Shown here: in pieces, positions 6,752-14,921 of the stretch | Layout of the letters: every line of letters begins with the position of its first letter | How positions within the stretch are numbered: the first letter of the stretch is position 1 | From: Methanothrix soehngenii GP6 | GTDB lineage: Archaea; Halobacteriota; Methanosarcinia; Methanotrichales; Methanotrichaceae | Assembly (NCBI RefSeq): GCF_000204415.1 | Contig: NC_015416.1 | Coordinates: forward strand, 496,001-560,000 | Reading direction: 5' to 3' | Length of the DNA: 64,000 nt | Translations under genes and position numbers: made by a program | The notes under the pieces: generated by a model | Database searches by the model: none | What the model saw: the letters and a program-made list of their open reading frames with translations, nothing else | Told to the model about the DNA's origin: nothing

Positions 6752-6910
6752 GGCTCCTCGCTATTTTGTATGGGCGAACTTGAATCGCTGGTTCTCTGTG
6801 TCTCGGTGCCTCAGTGGTGAACCGCTATGCATTGACCCAACCACAGAGACGCAGAGGAAACGAGGCCATATTCTCTGACTTAACTCACCCACATAATTCA
6901 ACGAAGAGCC
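6752..6910. repeat. 159-bp MITE-like element, copy A
   Basis: The element starts GGCTCCTCGCT and ends with the near-complement ACGAAGAGCC, giving terminal inverted repeats. Inside, a second inverted pair of CTCTGTGTCTC and CCACAGAGACGCAGAG arms forms a nested hairpin. A second copy of exactly the same length and roughly 80% identity by eye is at 10612-10770. It has no coding capacity. It resembles a non-autonomous miniature transposable element or a REP-type palindromic element; no transposase with matching ends is in the window. Confidence 0.75.
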
Positions 6911-7140: not shown

Positions 7141-8280
7141 TCAGGCACGTGCCAGCTCCAGCATTCCCTCCAGCCGCTCCAGCCTCTCCCCTGGATCCCG
7201 GTTCTGCTCTCGTACCCAATGGAGCAGCTTCTTTACCGCCAGTCCGCTGTCGATGATATCTCCCGCCTTCTCCACTCCCTCTAGCAGGTCTTCTGAGCGG
7301 CCGGTGATGCAGAGCAATGGCGCAGCATTCAGGCATACAATATCCCTTCTATCCCCGCGGTCAAAACCCGACAGAACTCGAAGGAGCCTTACTGCCTCCT
7401 CTTCGATATTCCCACGGTTGAGAAGAGCAGACTCATCCCCCTTCTCCAGGCCCAGGTCGCAGGCATTTAGGGCATATTCCCTGATCCTGCCATCCTCATC
7501 CAGCTCTGCTACATCCGTCCTTCCAAGAGTCGAGAGTTCATCCATCCCCCGCAGATCGTCACCGCTCCGGCCGTGGATAACAAAGGCCCTCTTGTAGCCG
7601 ATCTCCTTCATAGCCCTGGCTATTGGCAGAACCATCTCTCGGCTGTAGACCCCGCGAACACCGTAAGCGGGCAGAGCGGGATTGGCCAGAGAGCCAGCGA
7701 TGTTCAGAACGGTGCCGAACCTGATCTGAGAGAGGATCCTGGAGAGGGCAGAGGGATGGACCTTGCCGCTCATGCCGTTGAATATGCCGATCCCTGCCAC
7801 TTCGATGCTCCTTTTCACCAGGTCCACATCGCAGTCAACGTCTATCCCGAGCTGCTCGAGCATATCCACTGTGCCGCAGCTGGAGGTTATGGCCCGAGAA
7901 CCGTGCTTGGCCATGTTGATCTTGTCCGCCGCCGCCACAATCGAGGCCGCGGTGCTGATGTTGAAGGTCTTGATCGAGTCCATGCCCGTCCCGCAGTTAT
8001 CAGCCAGCGGCCCCTGGACGCATGGGCGGACCTTCAATGTGTCCACCTCATATATCGCCTCCCAGATGCCGGCGATCTCCTCAGCTGTCGCCCCCTTGGC
8101 GGTGATGGCAGCCAGGAACGCCCCCTGCTGCAGATCCGGCTGCTCGTCATTCAGGATCTGACGGAATAGATCTGAGGCTTCGCCTCGGGTCAGGTTCCGA
8201 CCTTTGATCAGTTCGTCCACCTTTCCCCCAAAATGCTTCAGGCTCTCTTCCGACACTATTTTCAGCAAATCTTTCGCCAT
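7141..8280 (-). CDS. anthranilate phosphoribosyltransferase-like protein (TrpD superfamily)
   Basis: 379-residue member of the glycosyltransferase family 3/TrpD fold. The small helical domain at the N-terminus is followed by the PRPP-binding region with CGTGMDSIKTFNIST (near residue 95) and KHGSRAITSSCGTVDMLE. In true TrpD the first motif reads GTGGD. The conserved TrpD segment with HPAMK and a RTxFNxxGPLxNP signature is here HPSAL and GTVLNIAGSLANP, so the acceptor may not be anthranilate. The gene is the last of a likely operon with an MDR dehydrogenase and cobT, not with other trp genes. A phosphoribosyl transfer reaction is expected; the substrate is unknown and a link to cobamide or nucleotide metabolism is only inferred from context. 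Confidence 0.8.
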   Translation of the reverse strand: MAKDLLKIVSEESLKHFGGKVDELIKGRNLTRGEASDLFRQILNDEQPDLQQGAFLAAITAKGATAEEIAGIWEAIYEVDTLKVRPCVQGPLADNCGTGMDSIKTFNISTAASIVAAADKINMAKHGSRAITSSCGTVDMLEQLGIDVDCDVDLVKRSIEVAGIGIFNGMSGKVHPSALSRILSQIRFGTVLNIAGSLANPALPAYGVRGVYSREMVLPIARAMKEIGYKRAFVIHGRSGDDLRGMDELSTLGRTDVAELDEDGRIREYALNACDLGLEKGDESALLNRGNIEEEAVRLLRVLSGFDRGDRRDIVCLNAAPLLCITGRSEDLLEGVEKAGDIIDSGLAVKKLLHWVREQNRDPGERLERLEGMLELARA

Positions 8281-8366
8281 CTTCCCCTCGCTTCGTCCCT
8301 TAAAAAACTATAAACTGACTATAATTTCGCAACAAATAGATTCAAGCTGCTATTGCTGTATCTGCT

Positions 8367-9470
8367 CTAAACCGCACAGACAACAGACTTCAATCCTGCT
8401 CGCCTGGAGGAGTGCTCAAATGCATCCGAGATTCGGGCTAGATCGGCTCTTTTGGTGATGATCCAGTTCGCCCTGATCCCGCCTGATTCCAGGAGGCTGG
8501 CAGCCATTCTGTTCTGCCGGCTGCTGCAGCCATATGCTCCTGTTATGGTCTGCTCGAGGTAATGCATCGATCGCAGGTCGATCATCCCCTCATAATCGCC
8601 CGGCTGGGGCCCAGAGAATATGCATATCCTCCCACCAGGGGCAAGCAGCCTCATCTGCCTTTGGTCGATCTTCACCTCAGGGGTGGCAGTGAGGATAACG
8701 TCAACTCCCCTGCCATCGGTCTCGCTCAAGATTGTCCTTTCCGCTTCCTCGAACGGGTCCTGCCCCTCCTCCCGGTTGCCGCTAAACCAGCCGATCACCC
8801 GGGCAGAGGTATGCCTCTTGATCTCCCTGATCCGTCCGGGCAGCCTCTCTGCCAGCAGGATCTCTCCTGCCCCCCGCATCTCCGCCAGAAGGGCATGAAG
8901 AGCGCCAATCGGTCCTCCGCCCCAGATCAGGACGGTGTCACCCTCTCCGACCCTGGCCTGCTCCTGGCCGTTAATGCAGCAGGCCAGAGGCTCGGCCAGG
9001 GTGAAGAGGGCCGGGTCCACTTCCTCGGGCAAGCGATTTAGAGCGGTGCTGATGCCAAAATGCTCAGAAAAGCTCTGAGCTGGCAGGGGCAGGGCCAGGT
9101 ACTCGGCAAACCCCCCGTCAATGTTGAAGCCGATTATCTTCATGTCCCGACAGCGGTTGTCTGCACCCCGAAAGCAGGCATGACAGTGTCCACAGGCGAT
9201 GCCCGGCCAGACCTGGACCAGCTCGCCTGCCCTTAATTGACGGCCATCAGCCTGCACTTTGCGGTCTATCTCTTCTATCCGGCCCACAACCTCATGCCCC
9301 AGGATGCGCGGATAGCAGAGGTCCCTGTGCCCCTGATCGAGCATCTTTATGTCCGTGCCGCAGACAGCGCAAGCCTCGACCCTGATCAGCGCCCCTCCTG
9401 GAGGGCACCGAGGCCTTGGCAAATCCATCAGCGCCAGATTCTTTGGCCTCTTCAGCACAGCCGCCTTCAT
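8367..9470 (-). CDS. zinc-dependent medium-chain alcohol/polyol dehydrogenase
   Basis: 367-residue MDR-family dehydrogenase. The N-terminal GroES-like domain has the catalytic zinc ligands in CAVCGTD (Cys near 38) and GHEVVG, and the structural zinc lobe GIACGHCHACFRGADNRC with its four cysteines. The Rossmann domain has the nucleotide motif VLIWGGGPIGAL near residue 185. It most resembles the threonine/sorbitol dehydrogenase branch, so it probably oxidises a secondary alcohol with NAD(P)+, but the substrate cannot be read from sequence. The gene starts 16 bases after the stop of cobT and precedes the TrpD-like gene, in one direction, which suggests co-expression. Confidence 0.85.
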   Translation of the reverse strand: MKAAVLKRPKNLALMDLPRPRCPPGGALIRVEACAVCGTDIKMLDQGHRDLCYPRILGHEVVGRIEEIDRKVQADGRQLRAGELVQVWPGIACGHCHACFRGADNRCRDMKIIGFNIDGGFAEYLALPLPAQSFSEHFGISTALNRLPEEVDPALFTLAEPLACCINGQEQARVGEGDTVLIWGGGPIGALHALLAEMRGAGEILLAERLPGRIREIKRHTSARVIGWFSGNREEGQDPFEEAERTILSETDGRGVDVILTATPEVKIDQRQMRLLAPGGRICIFSGPQPGDYEGMIDLRSMHYLEQTITGAYGCSSRQNRMAASLLESGGIRANWIITKRADLARISDAFEHSSRRAGLKSVVCAV

Positions 9471-9486
9471 AGTTCGATCCTGGATC

Positions 9487-10527
9487 CTACTTCTTGGGAA
9501 GCTCGACTGTCATCAGTACCCGGTCGGTCTCACTGACCAGCTGCTGCTGAGAGAATCCATAAAGCCCGGCCAGAAGGCTGGCTCCGCCCATGCCCACCCC
9601 CTCTTTGACATAACCCTGGGCATAGACCTGCAGCCCGGGAATCTTTGAGCTCTCCAGCCCCGGATCGGCATAGAAGTATGGCCTGCCCGTAGCCTCCACT
9701 ATTTGCCGGAAGTTGGCGGTCGTGTCCTCCATGATGTACTTCGTGGTGGCAATGGAGATGTCGCCTTTCAGGTCCAGGGCTTTCGCCAATGCCAGCACCG
9801 TAGCCATCTGCGTTCCCCCTGCCAGCACCACTCTGCTCCCGGATAAGCCGCTGATCAATCCCAGGGCGCAGGGCATCATGGGGTCGCCCAATTCCCGTAT
9901 CGCCTCCATTGGGTCACCCTTCAGGCTGCCCGGAGCCACTCCTGCCCTGGCCATTGCCTCTGCTGCCACCTGCTCCTTGAGCCCTGTTGGATTGGAGACG
10001 AAGCTGCTGCTGACCTTTTCTCTGTAGCCGAGTGCCCTGAGAACGGCAAGAGCTGTGGTTGTGCCGCCTGCTATTGACTCCCCAATGAATATGCAATCTG
10101 AGAGCCCGGCAAGCTTGCTTCCCAGCCGCCTGGCCCTCTCAAATGTCCCCTGGGGATCTATGACAGCGCTCTTTTTTCGGATGTCGCCTCCCGGCTGGCC
10201 TCCCAGCTCGACATAAGGGACGGCCGGCTTCTTTCGCAGGCCCGAGGCTACGAAGAGAGAATTGATGCCCGTCAGGTTCAGGGCCGCTTTGGTGACCACC
10301 GCCGGGGTGGGCGAGCCTCCGGGAGCCTCAGGCAGCTCGGGCATGGTGATAATTCTGTTAGTCTCCACCAGCTCGGCGTCTGCGCCTGGGGTGTAATCTG
10401 TCAGCTCGGGTGAGGTTCCTGCCGCCGAGAGGCCAGGTATCTTTCCGGTGTCCGTATTGGATATGATGCAGAGGAATAGTGGCCGCTTAGGGCGCGGCCC
10501 GAAATCGGGGTAGATCCATTCTGGCAT
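9487..10527 (-). CDS. cobT: archaeal CobT-type nicotinate-nucleotide:base phosphoribosyltransferase
   Basis: 346-residue protein of the archaeal CobT-like family. It shows the family pattern of an N-terminal strand region (LFLCIISNTDTG), a glycine-rich phosphate-binding section (YVELGGQPGGDI), the helix GESIAGGTTTALAVLRALGY, and a C-terminal GMGGASLLAGLYGFS. CobT activates a lower-ligand base by transferring phosphoribose from nicotinate mononucleotide in cobamide synthesis. Methanogens make cobamides for methyl transfer, so the role fits, although some archaeal members are poorly characterised. It is the first gene of a minus-strand set with the dehydrogenase and the TrpD-like protein. The ATG at 10527 lies just beside a dispersed repeat element. 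Confidence 0.82.
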   Translation of the reverse strand: MPEWIYPDFGPRPKRPLFLCIISNTDTGKIPGLSAAGTSPELTDYTPGADAELVETNRIITMPELPEAPGGSPTPAVVTKAALNLTGINSLFVASGLRKKPAVPYVELGGQPGGDIRKKSAVIDPQGTFERARRLGSKLAGLSDCIFIGESIAGGTTTALAVLRALGYREKVSSSFVSNPTGLKEQVAAEAMARAGVAPGSLKGDPMEAIRELGDPMMPCALGLISGLSGSRVVLAGGTQMATVLALAKALDLKGDISIATTKYIMEDTTANFRQIVEATGRPYFYADPGLESSKIPGLQVYAQGYVKEGVGMGGASLLAGLYGFSQQQLVSETDRVLMTVELPKK

Positions 10528-10611: not shown

Positions 10612-10770
10612 GGCTCCTCGCTATTTGGCATGGGTGAACTTGAATCGGAAATTCTCTGTGTCTCTGAGCCTCTGTGGTGAACCGCTATGCTCTGACCTAA
10701 CCACAGAGGCACAGAGGAACAGAGGCTATACTCCCTGCCGGACCTCACCCACATAATTCAGCGAAGAGCC
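10612..10770. repeat. 159-bp MITE-like element, copy B
   Basis: Same length and same ends (GGCTCCTCGCT ... AGCGAAGAGCC) as the copy at 6752-6910, with internal arms CTCTGTGTCTCTGAGCCTC and CCACAGAGGCACAGAGG. It fills most of the gap between the divergent cobT operon and the secreted-protein gene at 10985. The rest of 10528-10984 shows only AT-rich promoter-like sequence. Confidence 0.75.
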
Positions 10771-10984: not shown

Positions 10985-11737
10985 TTGAGCTTAAGATACA
11001 TGATTATTCCCCTGTTGCTTGCATTACTCACCACAGGCCTGTCCCTGGGGCAGACCACCGATAACGCAAGCATTGTGGATGACAATTCCAGCATAGAGGC
11101 AGCTTTGGATATTAATGCCACCCTGCCCGCAAACGAGAGCGCTCCAATGAATGAGACAGAGAATACGACCGCAGTCGCAGTCAATCTGACTCCAGCGATC
11201 TCGGGACCGAATCTGAACTACATCTGGCAGTTCTCTGGAATTGAGACGAGCCCCATAACCATGGTCCTGGAGCAGAATGGCAACGATCTTTTGGGCCGGG
11301 CAAAGTACGAGCCAGAGGGCGGAAAAGCCTGGAATGCGGATGTCATAGGCTCAGTGGCAGGAGAAAAGGTTGACCTGACCATGAGCGCCCTGAAGGATAA
11401 TGTGCTGATCATTACCAGGTTTTCAGGCATCTTGGCCAATGAGGACATCAGCGGCAACTTCACCCAGGCGAGCGAGGGCAAAATCATCAACAACGGCACC
11501 TTCAATGCCATGTGGATCAATCCGGATACCTCCAGCTACACTCCTGCCACGGTTGAGGCACCAGCGGTGGCAACTCCTGCTCCCGCAGAGGTCACCAGTG
11601 CCGCACAGCCCGCCGCTGCCGCAGTGAATACCACTGCTGCTAATAAGACGGAGAAGAGATTCGTCGACGTTCATGAGTACAAAGATAAGATCGGTCCGGG
11701 CGGCGACCTCAGCGGCATCCCACCAGGCATGGGCTGA
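10985..11737 (+). CDS. secreted protein, first of a paralogous pair
   Basis: 250-residue protein with an N-terminal signal peptide (hydrophobic core IIPLLLALLTTGLSL then GQTTD). It continues with a low-complexity Asn/Ala/Thr/Glu linker, a compact domain at about residues 75-180 (NYIWQFSGIETSPITMVLEQ ... GTFNAMWINPD), an Ala/Pro-rich linker, and a short tail ending GDLSGIPPGMG. The start is a TTG at 10985, 7 nt after GGAGGT. The gene at 11922 encodes a paralogue with the same domain, the same WINPDT-SYTPA junction and the same tail. I do not recognise the family; many NxT/S sequons suggest a glycosylated extracellular protein. A hairpin terminator follows. Confidence 0.8.
   Translation: MSLRYMIIPLLLALLTTGLSLGQTTDNASIVDDNSSIEAALDINATLPANESAPMNETENTTAVAVNLTPAISGPNLNYIWQFSGIETSPITMVLEQNGNDLLGRAKYEPEGGKAWNADVIGSVAGEKVDLTMSALKDNVLIITRFSGILANEDISGNFTQASEGKIINNGTFNAMWINPDTSSYTPATVEAPAVATPAPAEVTSAAQPAAAAVNTTAANKTEKRFVDVHEYKDKIGPGGDLSGIPPGMG

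Positions 11738-11921: not shown

Positions 11922-14921
<3,000 letters not shown>

Follow-up and report, generated by a model that had tools for sequence, protein, structure and literature searches.

A TrpD-like phosphoribosyltransferase and its zinc dehydrogenase partner: a gene pair associated with cobamide metabolism in archaea and bacteria

What does a relative of the tryptophan biosynthesis enzyme TrpD do beside cobT? This question is raised by a 64,000-nucleotide stretch of the Methanothrix soehngenii GP6 genome (contig NC_015416.1, positions 496,001–560,000; hereafter, the window). Here, cobT, the gene of a zinc-dependent dehydrogenase (hereafter, ADH) of the medium-chain dehydrogenase/reductase (MDR) type, and the gene of a TrpD-like protein follow each other as three intact open reading frames on the minus strand (window 7141–10527), as had been described in an earlier reading of the window (hereafter, the original prediction). 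We found that the core unit is the pair of ADH and TrpD-like genes, which occurs in both archaea and bacteria. The pair is almost certainly part of cobamide metabolism, and gene context suggests that the two proteins are probably consecutive enzymes of nucleotide-loop assembly by which the lower-ligand base is made or prepared for CobT. The locus comprises the following features (window coordinates; PRPP, phosphoribosyl pyrophosphate).

9487..10527, minus strand: cobT, archaeal-type nicotinate-mononucleotide-dependent phosphoribosyltransferase, 346 aa (TIGR00303: 301 bits, cut-off 240)
8367..9470, minus strand: Zn-dependent MDR dehydrogenase (ADH), 367 aa (PF08240 and PF00107)
7141..8280, minus strand: TrpD-like phosphoribosyltransferase, 379 aa (PF00591 and PF02885)
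7978..7992, minus strand: GTGMD motif, residues 97–101, the PRPP loop with the family-specific Met100
7894..7908, minus strand: KHGSR motif, residues 125–129, in which the Asn of TrpD KHGN is replaced by Ala/Ser
7678..7779, minus strand: signature NGMSxxxHPxALxRILSQIRFGTxLNxAxSLANP, residues 168–201, which replaces the anthranilate-side motif
7537..7542, minus strand: Asp247-Glu248, the Mg-binding pair of the TrpD fold, kept

The intergenic gaps are 16 nt (cobT/ADH) and 86 nt (ADH/TrpD-like), and the same three-gene block is present in other Methanothrix/Methanosaeta genomes. The bona fide TrpD of the host genome (3,026,645 bp, two contigs) is encoded elsewhere (C1:1106254-1107003), and a third, AMP phosphorylase-like member of the superfamily is also located in the window region.

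The TrpD-like protein and its acceptor site

The TrpD-like protein scores 271 bits against the TrpD model TIGR01245 (cut-off: 199 bits), a result that demonstrates homology and not the substrate. Because this cut-off is passed, automatic annotation would assign the gene to tryptophan biosynthesis, and the members of this family are, as far as sequence can tell, systematically misannotated as TrpD. Known TrpDs (TIGR01245; PF00591/PF02885; PDB 1kgz, 1zyk, 1vqu, and 9ucw) resemble the TrpD-like protein in fold (TMq ~0.8), length, and PRPP/Mg residues, whereas the fixed acceptor exchanges, an Asn-Gly insertion, the GTGMD loop, a clade of its own, the ADH neighbor, and riboswitch control set the TrpD-like protein apart. 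For the TrpD-like protein, AlphaFold2 yields a model of TrpD fold (pLDDT 93.3) that matches the PRPP-bound TrpD structures 1zyk and 1zxy. Together with the retained motifs, this model predicts a PRPP-dependent phosphoribosyltransferase of TrpD fold.

Residues were compared in an alignment of 79 TrpD-like family members and 14 archaeal TrpDs. At the place of the TrpD motif HPAMK...RTxFNxxGPLxNP, the Methanothrix protein carries HPSALSRILSQIRFGTVLNIAGSLANP, and it retains KTFNIST, KHGSR, and GMDE, with the PRPP loop GTGGD changed to GTGMD. Position 100 is Met in 79/79 family members and Gly in 14/14 TrpDs, and position 128 is Ala (71) or Ser (8) in the family and Asn in 14/14 TrpDs. L183, G189, L192, and S197 are present in all 79 members, at positions where the archaeal TrpDs have Arg, Arg (12/14), Phe, and Pro, respectively. 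The two-residue insertion N168-G169 (79/79) faces a gap in the archaeal TrpDs, and both R181 (Pro or Gly in TrpD) and F188 (variable in TrpD) are invariant in the family (79/79). The TrpD acceptor residues (the Asn of KHGN, both Arg of VR...RT, and the Pro of GPLxNP) are exchanged for Ala/Ser, Leu, Gly, and Ser in every member. Variants of Mycobacterium TrpD in the PDB (N138, P180, R193, and R194; numbering mapped onto the family columns via shared motifs) show that others picked these positions as the acceptor site. The Asp-Glu Mg pair is kept in 79/79 family members and 14/14 TrpDs, and GTGxD, NxST, and KHG are also kept in 79/79 members, barring a few K/R and G/A exchanges. Because the PRPP/Mg residues are kept and the new acceptor residues are invariant, these exchanges point to a specificity change under selection and not to decay. 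The loss of the anthranilate-side signature with retention of the PRPP side, claimed by the original prediction for one protein, is therefore fixed in all 79 family members.

A FastTree phylogeny of 73 proteins divides into two groups, one with every TrpD-like protein, bacterial or archaeal, and one with the 31 true TrpDs, some of which come from genomes that also encode the TrpD-like protein (support on the TrpD side: 1.0), in agreement with the expectation that the TrpD-like protein stands apart from true TrpD. Profile scores in Halobacteriota are bimodal (family: ~520 bits and above; TrpD: <265 bits), and a separate true TrpD exists besides the TrpD-like gene in 16/16 genomes checked and in the host genome. 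The shared fold and the passed TIGR01245 cut-off would be compatible with a second, ordinary TrpD that serves tryptophan synthesis. However, the separate clade, the exchanged acceptor site, and the true TrpD in every genome checked led us to reject a plain TrpD paralogue; given also that nearly all loci lack trp neighbors and that the control is by cobamide, this explanation is extremely improbable. TrpD2/YbiB and the NP-II nucleoside phosphorylases belong to the same superfamily, and the TrpD-like protein scores far below the cut-offs of these families (YbiB-type: 34–53 bits; phosphorylases: 25–48 bits). Membership in TrpD2/YbiB failed for both PRK08136 (34 vs 185 bits) and PRK09071 (49 vs 257 bits).

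The ADH/TrpD-like gene pair and its distribution

ADH is a zinc MDR protein, in which the catalytic (C37, H59, and E60) and structural (C93, C96, C99, and C107) zinc ligands are invariant or nearly so among 73 homologues, and it has invariants of its own (K42, H303-Y304, and GAYG). The zinc ligands and the NAD fold are common to L-threonine 3-dehydrogenase and polyol MDR dehydrogenases, but ADH scores far below the family cut-offs of those enzymes (at best 154 bits vs 450 bits). In all 73 loci where both genes could be placed, ADH and TrpD-like genes adjoin and share one strand, separated by a median of 7 nt, with ADH first in 60 loci and TrpD-like first in 13. The ADH subfamily (at least 390 bits) was found in 17/17 TrpD-like-positive and 0/26 negative archaeal genomes (one contig-end fragment left out; Fisher p 2e-12, uncorrected for relatedness), and more distant MDR relatives (210–247 bits) are present in three TrpD-like-negative archaeal genomes. 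The original prediction was right to link the TrpD-like gene to cobT and overlooked that its obligate partner is the dehydrogenase and not cobT.

The pair is carried by Methanothrix and its relatives, Methanomassiliicoccales, ANME-1, Methanolliviera, Syntrophoarchaeum, and Wukongarchaeum among archaea, and by Bacillota, Chloroflexota (Dehalococcoidia), Desulfobacterota, and Aquificota among bacteria (pair counts in this study carry no correction for relatedness). Few bacterial genomes have the family: 9/348 genomes in the phylum of the cultured pair carrier Formimonas (F. warabiya DCMF) and 12/395 in the phylum of locus L117 (Desulfobacterales; L and G numbers are our handles for loci and genomes). 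In Bacillota and one Desulfobacterota genome, a conserved protein of ~70 aa (motif LYxLKCxxGYxR...xKAxV) is encoded directly downstream of the TrpD-like gene (L277:7109-7321, L280:7073-7297, L282:5625-5906, L296:6128-6400, L109:11148-11360, L120:11739-11951, and L127:5794-6099), with no Pfam or NCBIfam match for the copies tested.

Association of the pair with cobamide genes

The cobalamin riboswitch RF00174 is located directly upstream of the pair in 31/36 bacterial loci tested (by set: 7/7, 9/10, 0/2 in Aquificota, 6/6, and 9/11), the match at L130 being weak (36.6 bits). The last two sets, fetched after the pattern was known, served as a test (15/17 loci), and RF00174 was found in 0/11 true-TrpD control loci from pair-carrying bacteria. 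Isoenzymes that stand in for cobamide-dependent ones when B12 is scarce, such as metE or nrdD, are also under cobalamin riboswitches (PMC8620254), and the pair might be a substitute of this kind and not a biosynthetic step. This is very unlikely in view of its linkage and fusion to cobT, its linkage to other nucleotide-loop genes, and its presence in a bza operon. A gene for a protein of 300–380 aa with a ribbon-helix-helix-like start and no Pfam match (cluster 15: L076, L079, L088, L090, L097, L111, L115, and L119; e.g., L097:3821-4963) is divergent from the pair in ANME-1 and Methanolliviera, and downstream of the pair on the same strand in Wukongarchaeum (L111); this protein may take the place of the riboswitch in archaea.

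The cobT gene was found in 32/78 pair loci, within ~1.6 kb of the pair in 30 of these. The archaeal-type gene lies upstream of the pair in Methanothrix and downstream in L081, and the bacterial type adjoins the pair in ANME-1, Methanolliviera, Syntrophoarchaeum, Dehalococcoidales, Desulfobacterales, and L118. In later-fetched Desulfobacterota loci, cobT is again at the pair, together with CobS, CobD-like aminotransferase, and CbiB. Within Methanothrix, it is syntenic in every TrpD-like locus with enough flanking sequence, so the linkage on which the original prediction relied persists in relatives. Other nucleotide-loop genes (CobD-like aminotransferase, CbiB, CobS, CobU-like, and CbiP) are beside the pair in L103, L107, L117, L118, L301, and L304, and two loci have an in-frame ADH-CobT fusion next to the TrpD-like gene (L296:4004-6121, minus strand, 705 aa; L298:7383-9533, plus strand, 716 aa). 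CobT is kept in 19/21 pair-bearing genomes, which shows that the pair works with CobT; a role as its substitute was rejected.

Two further explanations start from these neighbors. CobT consumes nicotinate mononucleotide (NaMN), and the TrpD-like enzyme might recycle the nicotinate released by CobT to NaMN with PRPP, ADH being ancillary; the adjacency of cobT in many lineages and its retention in pair-bearing genomes agree with this idea. It is nevertheless improbable, because Leu, Gly, and Ala/Ser stand where TrpD has its carboxylate-side Arg and Asn, which disfavors a pyridine carboxylate, and because the obligate ADH and the ADH-CobT fusion are left unexplained. The resemblance of ADH to threonine 3-dehydrogenase, with threonine dehydrogenases among its nearest solved structures, could place the pair in aminopropanol-linker synthesis. 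This role would leave the phosphoribosyltransferase without a function, and the usual linker route appears to be present, since a CobD-like aminotransferase is beside the pair in L103, L118, L301, and L304 (with a GHMP kinase also in L118); we regard it as highly unlikely.

Pterin-binding proteins resembling dihydropteroate synthase are encoded in the vicinity of the pair. In L081 (L081:7873-8736), the gene immediately precedes the pair and shares its strand, whereas at Methanomassiliicoccales pair loci (e.g., L077:12873-14027) it is on the opposite strand. A functional link to purine, pterin, or LarA-like genes (Pterin_bind, LarA-like, and FeS genes in Methanomassiliicoccales) was rejected because of opposite strands and apparent lineage synteny.

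In one locus, the pair is part of a bza-type operon (L281:847-8714, minus strand) with the order riboswitch, ADH, TrpD-like, BzaA/B-like, BzaB-like, CobT, energy-coupling factor (ECF) component, and AIRS-related protein. For both tandem ThiC-like proteins of this operon, TIGR04386 (BzaB) is the best-scoring model; the 582 and 631 bits reached exceed the ThiC scores of these proteins and stay below the curated 700. The last two genes may encode an alpha-ribazole uptake component and an alpha-ribazole kinase. Likeness of the pair to bzaABCDEF lies in its genomic position with cobT, which is included in the bza operon of Moorella (PMC8123684). The overall case draws its strength from associations that recur across varying CobT types, gene arrangements, and regulators, and again in the later-fetched test sets. 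Riboswitches, cobT in unrelated lineages, the bza operon, and the ADH-CobT fusions thus give the link to cobamide lower-ligand metabolism, which had been suggested from the window, a firmer footing than one locus could provide.

Predicted role in the lower-ligand pathway

BzaAB and BzaF are ThiC-like proteins that act on aminoimidazole ribotide (AIR) by radical S-adenosylmethionine (SAM) chemistry, and BluB is an aerobic 5,6-dimethylbenzimidazole synthase that cannibalizes flavin and needs O2. Unlike BzaAB/BzaF, the pair consists of a phosphoribosyltransferase and an MDR dehydrogenase and often occurs without a BzaAB/BzaF-like gene. BluB and ArsAB (phenolic ligand activation), which serve the lower ligand before CobT or in its stead, would resemble the pair in function and are not known to be related to it in sequence. 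ArsAB is a tandem pair, whereas PF02277 CobT is single in each of 18 pair-bearing genomes and double in one. Methanothrix soehngenii reportedly contains a 5-methylbenzimidazolyl cobamide, and 5-methylbenzimidazole is not known to be a direct product of the described bza steps.

Given the nucleotide-loop neighbors and the fusion to base-activating CobT, the product of ADH would most simply be a base or base precursor for CobT. Because the PRPP site is intact and the carboxylate-binding arginines are gone, the TrpD-like enzyme would act before ADH on a neutral acceptor, joining PRPP to an aromatic or heteroaromatic compound that, unlike anthranilate, has no carboxylate. The NAD-dependent ADH may then oxidize the phosphoribosylated product or a ring derived from it, and the resulting base would be passed to CobT, which would form the alpha-ribotide with NaMN. 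As a specific chemistry we propose that an ortho-diamine could react with PRPP, that the ring could close on C1' to give a benzimidazoline, and that oxidation could yield a benzimidazole. Such a route would use exactly one phosphoribosyltransferase and one dehydrogenase, with neither the O2 required by BluB nor the radical SAM step of BzaAB/BzaF. A third, anaerobic lower-ligand route of this type, in which a TrpD-derived transferase acts on an aromatic amine, a sugar carbon closes the imidazole, and ADH aromatizes the product ahead of CobT, is a tentative and rather doubtful extension of the lower-ligand assignment.

Several observations weigh against that assignment. The fusion and the operon neighbors place the genes in one pathway but do not tell in which order the enzymes act. 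L102 has no cobT within 13 kb, and RF00174 is absent at L102 and L107; nor was it found in the archaeal pair loci examined, so that the archaeal case rests on linkage. Some carriers of the pair have bza genes (G416, G425, and G735) and others do not (e.g., G413, which has no member of the ThiC family at all), so the pair is not tied to any single known ligand route and is compatible with both the presence and the absence of the AIR-derived one.

Archaeal ThiC-type proteins form three clades: canonical ThiC, a BzaF-like class (class B, named by relative scores to TIGR04386 and not by a characterized archaeal enzyme), and a third, divergent clade seen in Methanosarcinales (L176, L177, L185, and L186; ~490–507 bits on PF01964). 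Class B is present in 179/392 Halobacteriota genomes, and the 24 TrpD-like-positive genomes among Halobacteriota divide into 8 with and 16 without it, although these lineages are not independent. Within the family of the window's host, no sampled genome lacks both TrpD-like and class B, and several ANME-1 genomes lack both. Strict complementarity of the pair with the BzaF-like ThiC paralogue was not accepted and is suggestive only, since eight archaeal genomes, the host included, have both. Most bacterial carriers have one ThiC or none, and in G416 and G425 two BzaAB-like genes lie in tandem away from the ADH/TrpD-like pair.

The best rival to lower-ligand synthesis is salvage or remodeling, in which unwanted ribotides or ribazoles would be broken down or recycled so that CobT attaches a better base, with the TrpD-like protein as a pyrophosphorolytic or phosphorolytic enzyme and ADH oxidizing the sugar. 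The nucleoside phosphorylases share the TrpD fold, and the ECF-type vitamin transporter component and AIRS-related protein after cobT in L281 could be salvage genes. On the other side, the pair is also found in de novo clusters that contain CobD-like, CbiB, CobS, and CobU-like genes but lack salvage genes, and its PRPP/Mg residues are fully kept, as in a synthetic phosphoribosyltransferase. We consider salvage unlikely and prefer synthesis or preparation of the lower-ligand base.

In the literature searched, no paper was found that gives a TrpD-like protein a cobamide function or describes the module; in Chlorobium, a gene called trpD is merely listed beside cobalamin genes in a figure legend (PMC8620254). 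Whether an organism can use a particular cobamide is decided by the lower ligand, and this ligand could be assigned from the genome for 58% of predicted bacterial cobamide producers in one survey (PMC6461909). A riboswitch-controlled pair that is twice fused to CobT offers a genetic handle on part of this prediction gap, covering methanogens, ANME-1 methane oxidizers, Dehalococcoidia, and syntrophic Bacillota.

Around the block in the window, the AI-2E transporter, tRNA methylthiotransferase, and acs genes downstream were rejected as a functional link because their synteny is confined to Methanothrix. A 159-nt repeat (window 6752–6910 and 10612–10770; copies 84% identical) brackets the cobT-ADH-TrpD-like block and resembles a miniature inverted-repeat transposable element, with imperfect terminal inverted repeats GGCTCTTCG...CGAGGAGCC. 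Two adjoining look-alike proteins without a Pfam match are encoded on the plus strand (window 10985–11737 and 11922–12740), and both carry the pattern YIWxxSGIExxxxxMxLxQ..xLxGxAKYEP.G..AWNA.VIGSV.

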